The notes under the pieces: generated by a model
Told to the model about the DNA's origin: nothing
Database searches by the model: none
Seen by the model: only the letters and a program-made list of their open reading frames with translations
Position numbers and translations under genes: made by a program
Shown here: in pieces, positions 23,139 through 31,658 of the stretch
Position numbering within the stretch: position 1 is the first letter of the stretch
Layout of the letters: every line of letters starts with the position of its first letter
NCBI GenBank assembly: GCA_022565805.1
Contig: JAIULZ010000010.1
Location: 1-52,024 of the forward strand
Direction: 5' to 3'
DNA: 52,024 bases
Source: Balneolales bacterium
GTDB taxonomy: Bacteria > Bacteroidota > Rhodothermia > Balneolales > Cyclonatronaceae

Positions 23139-25226
23139 ATGACTCAGGCTGTTCAGAGAATTACCGAAAGACTACAGCGTAAGCTTACGCACAATCAAGA
23201 GTATTTTACCCCTGCTGAACTTATTGAGGTTGGTATTCCAGACTTTGTTGTGGCTCGAATACAGCTGGAGCTCGAGAAAAACCTGGCCGATTCTATCGTG
23301 CCGCCCCGCACCGACTGGGCAAATATGAATGCAGCAGAAGTTACCGGCGCATGGCAGCAATTTCTGGATGCTATTCATAATCAGCTTCGCTTACCGCATT
23401 CGTTTGCTAAAGGAGTGATTGAAAATTCGGTTGCCGATTTGCTGGATGTGCTCATCGAGCCCCGTAAAAATCTGGGTGCCTACATATTTGGCAACGACGA
23501 CATCCTGAATAAAGAAGAAGCTATGGAGCGCATGCGATGGGTTGTGGTGTACCGGCATTTCGGCACCTTTCTACCGCGCTACATGAAGAATAAACAGCTT
23601 GAGGTAATTAGCCGGCAACGTTATGAAAATGCGGTATCCCAAATAGACCGCAAACTTTGCGCCCAATACAGCCCGCTAAACTGGGCACAGCTTATTAACC
23701 CCATTTTTATTATTTGCAACGGCGAAATAGATCCTGAACTTCTTACTCGGTTTTTCAACGACAAAGAAATGCCAAAAATAGCGGCCCGCTTCGACGCGAA
23801 ACGGGATACTGTAGATAAGCAGCTTCTTATTGAGGTACTTTCCAGCCCAGTTTTTGAGGATAATGAAGACGACTCTAACTCGTATGTACCTCTAAGCTAC
23901 GGCCAGCCTGTTCAGCAAAACCGGGCAACAGAAGAAGAATCTTTTAAAAAGGCAGAGAAAGATCAAGAAAAGGCAGCGGAACAGGAACACGAACACGAAC
24001 CGGAAATTCGGGCCGGGCACCTGACCGACGAACCGGATGCCAAAGAGGAGCAGGAAGCCATCACCCTGCAAAGAAATGAACCTAAGTCTGAACCTTCTCC
24101 CCAAGATGAATCTAAAAGTAGTATGGAAGAAGCGCTAAGTGATTTTCTAAACTATACTTTTAAGAGCACCGACGAGCTCGAAGGTTCTGAAAAAGAACCT
24201 GAATCTGCAGAAGAAAACACAAAAGAAGAGCCGGAAACCACTTTGGGTTCAAACTTCAGGAGCAGCGCTTCATACGAAGAGAATAAAGATGAAGATGATG
24301 AAGAAGAAGAAGTTCCTTTCTATAAAAGATACCGCGCAGAAGCAGACACCGAAGATGATTCCATCATAAATAAAAAAACCGTTATCGACGAAGAAGATGA
24401 GGATCGTAAGCCATTATTCTCGCAGTTTACCTTTGATGAAGAGGAAACACAAGAAGAAGAAAGTTTTGCAGATAATGAAACTTCCACGCCCGATTATAAA
24501 AACCCTGCAGACGAGCAAGACCTTGAGGAATTAGTCGGCAATGCTAGTATTTTTAGCCCCGGGGAAGATGAAAGCAAGAAAAAAGACGAGAATAATGATG
24601 CTAAAGCAGAGATAGTTGAAGAAAAAGAGAATGAGAAAGAGAAAGACGAAGAAATTGATGACGAGCCCATTTATAAGAAGTTCCGCTTGTCTGATGATGA
24701 GGAGCCGGGATTAGGCTCAAGCGGGCTAAGTAAATCTGGAATAAAGTCTCCGGAACCAGCACATAATGAATCTGACAACAACGAAGACGATGATGTTCCC
24801 CTTTGGAAGCGTCTACTTGAAAAAGAAGACGATAGCGACGATACCCCTATAATTAAGAAAAGTATCTCACTGGATAGTACCTCTGTGGGCAGCCGGCAGG
24901 GGCAGGCTGCCTATCATGCAGAAGAAAAAGAAGAACAGCTACGAAGAAGTATAGCCGAACCCGAAAATAATGTGGGCGATCGCTACGAGTCTCTCAAAAA
25001 GTACTTAAAGAGTGGTCAGAAAGAGTTCATTCGCGATATTTTTAAAGGGGATGAGCAGGCATACAGCGAATGTTTAGAACAAATGGCAACCTACAAAAGC
25101 TGGAGAGAAGCCGGGAAATACCTCACTAACGAAATTTTCAGAAAAAATAAAATCGATATCTATAAAGATGTTACCGTAGATTTTACCGATAATCTTCATC
25201 GCTTTTTTATGAAATCTAAAAGCTGA
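23139..25226 (+). CDS. Large acidic hypothetical protein with repeated short linear motifs
   Basis: A 695-residue protein with three parts. Residues 1-245 look folded and helical (starting RITERLQRKLTHNQEYFTP). Residues about 255-605 are extremely Glu/Asp-rich, low-complexity and probably disordered. Residues about 610-695 form a second helical domain (RYESLKKYLKSGQKEFIRDIF... ending FTDNLHRFF). Inside the acidic part a short motif recurs about five times, near residues 391 (VPFYKRY), 424 (KPLFSQF), 509 (EPIYKKF), 553 (VPLWKRL) and 569 (TPIIKK). I do not recognise a characterised family. The C-terminal part resembles tails of uncharacterised Bacteroidota proteins from memory. It is a single gene between intergenic regions of about 200 and 100 bp. 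Confidence 0.85.
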   Translation: MTQAVQRITERLQRKLTHNQEYFTPAELIEVGIPDFVVARIQLELEKNLADSIVPPRTDWANMNAAEVTGAWQQFLDAIHNQLRLPHSFAKGVIENSVADLLDVLIEPRKNLGAYIFGNDDILNKEEAMERMRWVVVYRHFGTFLPRYMKNKQLEVISRQRYENAVSQIDRKLCAQYSPLNWAQLINPIFIICNGEIDPELLTRFFNDKEMPKIAARFDAKRDTVDKQLLIEVLSSPVFEDNEDDSNSYVPLSYGQPVQQNRATEEESFKKAEKDQEKAAEQEHEHEPEIRAGHLTDEPDAKEEQEAITLQRNEPKSEPSPQDESKSSMEEALSDFLNYTFKSTDELEGSEKEPESAEENTKEEPETTLGSNFRSSASYEENKDEDDEEEEVPFYKRYRAEADTEDDSIINKKTVIDEEDEDRKPLFSQFTFDEEETQEEESFADNETSTPDYKNPADEQDLEELVGNASIFSPGEDESKKKDENNDAKAEIVEEKENEKEKDEEIDDEPIYKKFRLSDDEEPGLGSSGLSKSGIKSPEPAHNESDNNEDDDVPLWKRLLEKEDDSDDTPIIKKSISLDSTSVGSRQGQAAYHAEEKEEQLRRSIAEPENNVGDRYESLKKYLKSGQKEFIRDIFKGDEQAYSECLEQMATYKSWREAGKYLTNEIFRKNKIDIYKDVTVDFTDNLHRFFMKSKS

Positions 25227-28735: not shown

Positions 28736-29290
28736 ATGCCTAAAATAACAGTATTAAGCGCCACAGACAGGCCAGGATCAATGGCCCTGAAAATTTCAAA
28801 ATTTACAGCAGAAAAATTAATTGAGCAGGGTGCAGAAGCGCAGGTCGTTTCACTTGAGGATTATCCGCTTCAGGACGTAGTTGGCGGTAAATATGGTCAG
28901 GATATTCCTTCGGTAAAAGCTTTTAACGATAATGTACTCGATGCCGACGGTGTGGTTATGGTTGTACCCGAATACAATGGCTCTTTCCCAGGAATCCTTA
29001 AAGTTTTTATTGATTATTTGCCATTTCCGGAGTCTTTTGAAAAACTACCTATTGCGTTTATTGGTGAAGCGGCCGGCGCCTTTGGCTCGGTACGGTCTGT
29101 GGAACAGCTTCAAATGATTTGCAACTACAGAAATGCATATTTATTCCCAGAGCGCATTTTTCTGCAAAGAGTAAATAAGATTTTCAATGAGAAAGATGGT
29201 ATTACTGATGAGTTTTCTGCTAAATTGATGAATAGCCTCATTGCCAATTTTGTAAGCTTCACCGATCGGAACAAAATTGCCAGATCCTGA
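28736..29290 (+). CDS. NADPH-dependent FMN reductase family protein
   Basis: A 184-residue flavodoxin-fold oxidoreductase (PF03358 type). The N-terminal phosphate-binding loop is visible as LSATDRPGSMALKIS. The strong family motif is VPEYNGSFPGILKVFIDYL. GEAAGAFGSVRSVEQL follows, as in azoreductase/chromate reductase-like members. It should bind FMN and use NAD(P)H to reduce quinones, azo compounds or flavins; the true substrate is unknown. It is a single gene followed by the element copy at 29315 and then a bidirectional terminator. Confidence 0.88.
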   Translation: MPKITVLSATDRPGSMALKISKFTAEKLIEQGAEAQVVSLEDYPLQDVVGGKYGQDIPSVKAFNDNVLDADGVVMVVPEYNGSFPGILKVFIDYLPFPESFEKLPIAFIGEAAGAFGSVRSVEQLQMICNYRNAYLFPERIFLQRVNKIFNEKDGITDEFSAKLMNSLIANFVSFTDRNKIARS

Positions 29291-29497: not shown

Positions 29498-29542
29498 AAA
29501 AAGGCTGCAGCGATAACTTAGTATTTCGCTGCAGCCTTTTTT
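29498..29542. terminator. Bidirectional rho-independent terminator
   Basis: A perfect 16-bp stem (29498-29513 with 29526-29541; core GGCTGCAGCGA) with a 12-nt loop, having A-run and T-run on the two sides. It lies between the convergent FMN reductase and alpha-CTD-like genes and can stop transcription from both. A smaller hairpin ACTGCC/GGCAGT precedes it (29467-29484). Confidence 0.9.
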
Positions 29543-29580: not shown

Positions 29581-30132
29581 TTAGCCCGCTTTTCTGTCCT
29601 CGAGAATTTCTAAAATAGTGGTCGCACAGTATTCTAATTCAGCCGATGTTTTAGGCCCGCAATGGGATAATTTAGAGAAATCGTCGGATTCTCTGTAGAA
29701 TTCCAGAAATGCTTCTACCCCAACGATGCCATTTCGAACAAGAGTATTTCTGGTTCGGTCGGATAAAGCCATATAAACAGCATCTACACGCTCAATTTTT
29801 TCCTGGGACTCAAACCTCCCCTCGGCATTTTTAAGTAAATCGGTAAAGTCGTGCTCAGTGCCGTGTTTTGTAAATATGGTATCTTCCCGGATAAGAATAC
29901 TGCTGTCATATTCCTTTTTTGCTACTTCATCACAAAAGCGAACAAGCTCTTTATTCGTCTTGGGCCCGCACTGCCTAAGACTTAAAAAGCTACCTTCTCT
30001 CCTATAATGTTCATACATCAAAAGCATACTCGCAAGCTTATTCTGAACCAAAACATTTCTGGCTCTCTCGCTTAGCATCTCTAACGTATCGGCTGATTTT
30101 TCAGGATCTTGAATCTCCATAGTCAATTTCAA
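29581..30132 (-). CDS. Stand-alone protein with two RNA polymerase alpha-CTD-like domains
   Basis: A 183-residue protein made of two similar domains, about residues 17-72 and 120-176, joined by a charged linker. Each reads L-S-x-R-x-R-N-x-L ... C-G-P-K-T-x-x-E-L. This matches the helix and helix-hairpin-helix pattern of the RNA polymerase alpha C-terminal domain. The positions equivalent to E. coli Arg265, Asn268, Gly296 and Lys298, which contact UP-element DNA, are present in both (Arg23, Asn26, Gly56, Lys58; Arg126, Asn129, Gly159, Lys161). There is no alpha N-terminal domain and no ribosomal operon around it. DNA binding or polymerase-related regulation is inferred. An in-frame ATG four codons in is an alternative start. 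Confidence 0.7.
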   Translation of the reverse strand: MKLTMEIQDPEKSADTLEMLSERARNVLVQNKLASMLLMYEHYRREGSFLSLRQCGPKTNKELVRFCDEVAKKEYDSSILIREDTIFTKHGTEHDFTDLLKNAEGRFESQEKIERVDAVYMALSDRTRNTLVRNGIVGVEAFLEFYRESDDFSKLSHCGPKTSAELEYCATTILEILEDRKAG

Positions 30133-30361
30133 ATATAAATAGTAAAGGGATACAATCGTAATAGCAATGTAATGATGGCTGTATTTTTCGTCTGCAATTT
30201 ATACCCTTAAACACGCTTATACAGAGTAATACACAGTAATTATCATTCATTTACAAAATTATTAATAGTAAGCCTCCATAGTGCATCTATGCGTATTTCC
30301 GAATCAATCCTGATGATTTACCAGGTTATTTTTACAACTTTTAAGATACCTTAAACAACAA

Positions 30362-30947: not shown

Positions 30948-31658
30948 TTAATACTCGAGTTCTTGTTTTTGCAGCTTTAATTCTTGCTCATGGAGCAAAA
31001 GTCTGAAGTTTCTCTCCCAAAATTCGGGTCGAAGAACCGTGTGAAGCAAATGTTTTCTAAGCCCGTTGGCATCGCCGGCAGAAACCCGAATCAATTCCTT
31101 ATGATATCTTCTCACATCCTCTATTTTTCTTTTAAGCTCGCGATCAATTTCTTTTCCCGTAAAGGTATCAAACGCAACCGACATTAAGGGCCTTCTGTAG
31201 GTTGCCATCAGATCGTACCGATACGTAAATCCAGAAAATTCAAGTTCTCCGTTTATTTGAATTTTACTCAGTTTTTCGGCTTCTTCTATAGCTTGTTTAA
31301 GGTTTTTGGAAGAAAGGTCGATGAGGCAAAGTTGCTTAAAACCTACCTTGAGCGACGGTACGCTACGGGCCTTTTTTAAAATATAAATATGAGCTTCAAC
31401 AACTTCGAGTGGATTACCACCCGAAACGGCATGTAGTTGCAGGTTTTCGACAGATACATCTAGTTTATTTACGCCCGCCAGCTTTGTTGCTTCCGCAACG
31501 TTTACGCGATAGCCACCTCTTAACAAAATATTAATAGCTTGTTGCAGGCTTAATCGAACCCCCATTTTTTTGAATTTCCGCTTTAGCTGATAAATATGGA
31601 GAAAGAAATAGCTGCCAAGTGCTAAAACCAATAGAGCCGGCAAAAGTAGAGCGTACAT
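30948..31658 (-). CDS. FloA-like (flotillin-like) membrane-anchored protein, short
   Basis: A 236-residue protein with one N-terminal membrane helix (about 3-22). Residues about 34-125 follow the FloA pattern: a basic stretch, GVNKLDVSVENLQLHAVSGG, NPLEVVEAHIYILKKA and CLIDLSSKNLKQAIEEA. These match the FloA segments KAGLDV...LESHYLAGGN, VVNALIAAQRA and AIDLAGRDVLEAV. The usual SPFH-type remainder and glutamate/alanine-rich coiled tail of FloA (about 330 residues in all) are replaced by about 110 different residues ending in a Gln/Glu-rich helix. Members organise membrane microdomains; whether this one does is unknown. Confidence 0.6.
   Translation of the reverse strand: MYALLLPALLVLALGSYFFLHIYQLKRKFKKMGVRLSLQQAINILLRGGYRVNVAEATKLAGVNKLDVSVENLQLHAVSGGNPLEVVEAHIYILKKARSVPSLKVGFKQLCLIDLSSKNLKQAIEEAEKLSKIQINGELEFSGFTYRYDLMATYRRPLMSVAFDTFTGKEIDRELKRKIEDVRRYHKELIRVSAGDANGLRKHLLHTVLRPEFWERNFRLLLHEQELKLQKQELEY

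Follow-up and report, generated by a model that had tools for sequence, protein, structure and literature searches.

The DNA analysed here (the window, 52,024 nucleotides) is part of the 4.47-Mb, 290-contig assembly of a Balneolales bacterium (G000) and carries, at positions 29581 to 30132, an open reading frame encoding a protein with two domains like the C-terminal domain of the RNA polymerase alpha subunit (alpha-CTD). The gene lies on the minus strand, where it reads for 183 amino acids from a TTG codon, and the frame is kept in six genomes; on the plus strand the same frame is interrupted by stops throughout. The open reading frame, its division into two halves and their alpha-CTD pattern, all described in an earlier note on this DNA, are confirmed, while three points are corrected: the strand, which is minus, the translation start, and the equivalent of Lys298 as a feature of the family. 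The ATG at 30120, which would yield a protein of 179 amino acids (20.7 kDa, pI 5.2), appears a likelier start than the TTG because the latter overlaps the motif TANNTTTG (here TATATTTG, positions 30130 to 30137 of the minus strand, a weak candidate for a Bacteroidota-type −7 element) and is followed by this in-frame ATG. Note that motifs of the −7 type occur in the window at chance level (58 versus 54 expected), so that we only infer the start.

Downstream of the tandem gene, a hairpin at 29498 to 29541, bordered by A and T runs (−27.2 kcal/mol, z −5.0), is probably a bidirectional terminator, shared with a convergent NADPH-dependent FMN reductase gene (28736–29290; PF03358). With this terminator at its 3′ side and the reductase gene convergent, the tandem gene looks monocistronic. 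The reductase gene adjoins it in five of the six genus members, the contig of the remaining one (G001) ending before that point, and the other flank is occupied by either an AEC-type permease gene (named from its sequence only) or a FloA-like gene. In the window, a short protein encoded at 30948–31658 on the minus strand has a partial FloA match below the cut-off (PF12127, residues 21–125), and a similar one is found near the tandem gene in the other genus members. Further away, the plus strand encodes at 23139–25226 a 695-residue protein whose middle is a very long, acidic and low-complexity stretch and which matches nothing in Pfam at E 0.01.

The tandem protein consists of two copies of a ~60-residue domain and contains no other polymerase part. 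The first copy (half 1, residues 13–74; 29911 to 30096, minus strand) matches the family profile, built partly from half 1 itself, at E 3e-27; the second (half 2, residues 115–175; 29608 to 29790, minus strand) also matches this profile, and the ~40 residues that link them (29791 to 29910) are variable in the alignment of the family. The two halves can be aligned with each other and with the alpha-CTD of the same organism in one register (LSxRxxN ... GxK), which, together with a profile–profile score above all shuffled controls (see below), bears out the claim that both follow the alpha-CTD pattern. The absence of an alpha N-terminal domain was likewise verified, Pfam and NCBIfam searches matching the tandem protein over the CTD region only. 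A broken rpoA fragment was considered and ruled out by the intact, separate and complete rpoA present in the same genome, by the homology of the two halves and by conservation in six species. RpoA was not found by protein search in G001, G003, G013, G017 and G019, the last three belonging to other genera; missing the whole protein in five genomes probably reflects limits of the data or of the search. A loss of the RpoA CTD in G001 and G003 was dropped as a candidate, since the whole RpoA was also not found there.

Single-sequence searches place the tandem protein near the alpha-CTD below thresholds: the RNA_pol_A_CTD model (PF03118) scores 13.2 bits (E 0.077), short of its gathering cut-off of 23.8, the RpoA model PRK05182 gives a sub-threshold E of 0.0019, and a PDB search returned chance matches only. 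When the 14 individual domains (the 12 halves from the genus and two from larger proteins described below) were compared with PF03118, the best member reached E 0.001. The profile built from these 14 domains is more telling. Five of its six PDB matches, the top five, are RNA polymerase alpha chains, all matched over the CTD (E 0.019 to 1.1). Against 41 genomes translated in six frames, five of the six matches that follow the family itself are RpoA alpha-CTDs, at E 0.003–0.01 and aligned over positions 5–58, nearly the whole domain; each of the 21 genomes checked among the 41 contains several HHH_5 and HHH_2 domains, and none of these ranks among the top profile matches. Using hhalign, the family profile aligns to the alpha-CTDs of 25 relatives over 52 columns (probability 83, E 8.7e-6) with a score of 29.9, above the maximum of 27.7 reached by 300 column-shuffled controls. 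The scores against the RuvA-type HHH_5 (9.4) and the ligase-type HHH_2 (10.9) both fall within the shuffled range. Taken alone, the half-1 profile still scores 25.7 against the alpha-CTD (E 1.1e-4, from a single comparison), and the half-2 profile gives a weak match (17.2, E 0.0076).

Among the known families, the alpha-CTD is thus the nearest profile, ahead of the other helix-hairpin-helix (HhH) families, and the HMM comparison proposed in the earlier note turns out in favour of the alpha-CTD with its Arg/Asn pair kept, short of the PF03118 cut-off. These data support the view that each half is distantly related to the alpha-CTD, every match being below curated cut-offs, and profile searches and profile–profile tests together favour descent from the alpha-CTD, or from an ancestor shared with it, over a generic HhH origin. 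What the tandem protein shares with the RpoA alpha-CTD (PF03118) is the LSxRxxN motif at helix 1 and an HhH hairpin with its glycine. Unlike RpoA, it has two copies per chain, lacks the N-terminal domain and stays below the Pfam cut-off; unlike the RpoA alpha-CTD, its domains carry a two-residue insertion before the hairpin and have no C-terminal GMxL arm. A 667-residue ORF of the same genome (L003) that also matches PF03118 was set aside as an ordinary DNA ligase, as judged from its sequence.

Half 2 was modelled from ten aligned halves, taken from the window and four other loci, giving a pLDDT of 88.6 and a pTM of 0.76, with helices at 2–18, 22–30, 36–46 and 57–75. Under the sequence alignment, the last three coincide with what we take to be the positions of alpha-CTD helices 1, 2 and 4. 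A fold of the whole protein made from the single sequence was set aside (pLDDT 39.9). A Foldseek search of the half-2 model against the PDB, in line with the structural check suggested in the earlier note but run without a positive control, retrieved no alpha-CTD and nothing below E 3.8, and against a viral library it gave nothing above noise. As the search was run without this control, the missing alpha-CTD match lowers confidence and does not refute the kinship. It is among the points that would favour a generic HhH repair or recombination protein, whose likeness to the alpha-CTD would be convergence in the hairpin, along with the missed Pfam cut-off and the CGPKT hairpin, which resembles the general HhH signature. 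Yet HHH_5 and HHH_2 score at noise where the alpha-CTD scores far higher, and the invariant Arg-x-x-Asn sits outside the hairpin; we therefore consider such an origin unlikely.

We then compared the contact residues, in E. coli numbering and with the organism's own alpha-CTD (L001) as reference. The DNA-contact residues, those of the 265 determinant, include R265, N268, N294, G296, K298, S299 and E302. Half 1 presents R23 (30064–30066) and N26 (30055–30057) as equivalents of Arg265 and Asn268 (together 30055 to 30066, minus strand), and half 2 presents R126 (29755–29757) and N129 (29746–29748; together 29746 to 29757, minus strand). The equivalents of Gly296 and Lys298 are G56 and K58 in half 1 (29959 to 29967) and G159 and K161 in half 2 (29650 to 29658), on the same strand. 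The statement that each half has Arg, Asn, Gly and Lys at these positions therefore holds for the window protein; across relatives, Arg, Asn and Gly are invariant (12/12 halves and 14/14 domains), whereas the lysine is not conserved, being present in nine of 14 domains (5/6 for half 1, 2/6 for half 2 and both domains from larger proteins). In E. coli alpha, R265 and N268 contact the DNA backbone and the minor groove (PMC11434276). At other positions of the determinant, the E302 equivalent is kept in 10 of 14 domains, S299 in one (mostly T elsewhere), N294 in none, and C269 is never kept. Overall, 62 of 112 cells of the 265 determinant are identical to the organism's own alpha-CTD, versus 118 of 644 at other positions.

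This selective retention of the DNA-contact Arg, Asn and Gly, while other alpha-CTD positions diverge, could suit a decoy that occupies UP-element-like tracts, competes with the alpha-CTD and lowers transcription from UP-dependent promoters, and the two domains of the protein recall the pair of alpha-CTDs in the polymerase. The loss or lack of conservation of the K298 and N294 equivalents makes a shared DNA specificity doubtful, however, and we regard a decoy role as improbable. The equivalent of D259, a residue of the 261 determinant touching sigma region 4, is found in none of the 14 domains, and position 261 is mostly G, N or Q. The two-residue insertion falls in the 284–285 region, beside the 287 determinant, which contacts activators. 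Both features weigh against a polymerase mimic or adaptor whose domains would bind the sigma factors or activators that normally touch the alpha-CTD, the loss of D259 speaking in particular against a full mimic. Such a role would fit a protein akin to the alpha-CTD, a hub for activators, and a lone copy of its domain is found in proteins bearing a sigma region 4 motif; on balance this role, too, seems to us improbable.

A survey of relatives for domain count and context, as the earlier note had suggested, found the tandem form in a single genus, apparently one of soda-lake bacteria. It is present at the same locus in all six genus members examined (G000 and five others). It was not found in four other genera of the family or in the rest of the 129 genomes of the order, and two phylum-wide samples that partly overlap, of 247 and 394 genomes, did not yield it either. 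Searches of viral contigs, phage records and plasmids returned no relatives of the tandem protein, and PADLOC gave no match to it. Candidatus Cyclonatronum proteinivorum is a soda-lake isolate (PMC6243061). In a tree of the domains, whose resolution is limited by their ~60 residues and whose root is arbitrary, the twelve halves group together (92/90) and half 2 forms one group (89/95), with the domains of the larger proteins and RpoA on the other side, which is consistent with a single internal duplication before the radiation of the genus.

The tandem protein evolves fast, with 26–63% identity between species versus 67–79% for the neighbouring reductase. Saturation of synonymous sites in almost every pair precludes an estimate of dN/dS. 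Fast evolution and the loss of several positions of the 265 determinant would be expected if DNA binding had been lost and the domains now served as protein–protein or scaffold modules. Against this stands the invariance of the R265, N268 and G296 equivalents though most other positions have changed, and we regard such a loss as improbable.

Of the three roles first proposed for this protein (DNA-binding regulator, polymerase mimic or decoy), a DNA-binding regulator is the best supported. The two homologous domains are distant kin of the alpha-CTD, retain R265, N268 and G296, and are conserved genus-wide at one locus; in the reading that we prefer, and to which we give about an even chance, the protein would bind DNA with both of its halves and be a small transcriptional regulator or an architectural DNA factor. 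It would be a stand-alone DNA binder whose single chain carries two diverged HhH domains of the alpha-CTD type, in which the Arg-Asn pair and the hairpin glycine of each half may grip A/T-rich DNA by its minor groove or backbone. One polypeptide would thereby do the job of the two alpha-CTDs in the RNA polymerase dimer and, expressed as a single gene, might regulate transcription or DNA architecture. DNA binding itself, the preference for the minor groove and A/T-rich tracts, and the regulatory role are predicted from sequence. Points against this reading are the Pfam cut-off that no match reached, the Foldseek search of half 2 (run without a positive control) that retrieved no alpha-CTD, the loss of N294 and C269 and the lack of conservation of K298; the fast evolution also counts against it, because it is unusual in a global DNA binder. 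A bolder version, in which a two-domain copy of the alpha-CTD would compete with or replace the polymerase's own at upstream promoter tracts as a genus-specific global regulator, appears rather unlikely to us.

The alpha-CTD is usually seen as a component tethered to RNA polymerase. If the preferred reading is true, this module would be able to become an independent regulator, its DNA-contact Arg, Asn and Gly kept and its other contacts lost, and the tandem protein would provide a straightforward way to ask whether domains like the alpha-CTD can work in trans on promoters. A further connection is with larger proteins that combine an alpha-CTD-like domain with a sigma region 4 motif, two of them encoded beside Dnd-like genes. 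The tandem arrangement is real, genus-specific and unusual; the module itself is already known.

Outside the genus, the closest relatives of the tandem domain (E 4e-11 to 2e-25, two of the four being in the profile) are these larger proteins of 667–737 amino acids, encoded in four genomes of the phylum (G063, G066, G233 and G170). Unlike the tandem protein, they are large and multi-domain and carry only one copy, at the N-terminus, together with a sigma-70 region 4 motif that two of them match only below the Pfam cut-off. In two of these genomes, which are distant ones, DndD-like (TIGR03185, 281 bits in G066) and DndE/HerA-FtsK-like genes lie directly downstream. In these Dnd-linked loci (L063:5185-11019 and L065:5741-11795), one large protein has an HA domain near its C-terminus, and the first protein, of the 667–737-residue type, matches no PADLOC family. 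Two of the multi-domain relatives searched against viral contigs, and one against plasmids, returned no relatives. The multi-domain relatives match weakly the sigma region 4 part of NCBIfam MzaA, a sigma-70-family protein of the MZA anti-phage system; the tandem protein, unlike MzaA, has no sigma part. BREX PglW, too, is reported to contain a domain whose structure resembles the alpha-CTD (PMC12839542); compared by description only, PglW differs from the tandem protein as a kinase fusion in the BREX/Pgl defence system. Alpha-CTD-like modules are thus known outside RpoA, from PglW and the multi-domain relatives; no description of a free-standing tandem alpha-CTD was found in the open-licence literature. 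In the same genome as the tandem gene, an SNF2-associated/SWIM protein (L002:1-1710, contig C31) contains an alpha-CTD-like stretch below the cut-off, and in G004 and G005 ORFs of similar length (1187–1194 amino acids) contain such a stretch above the Pfam cut-off.
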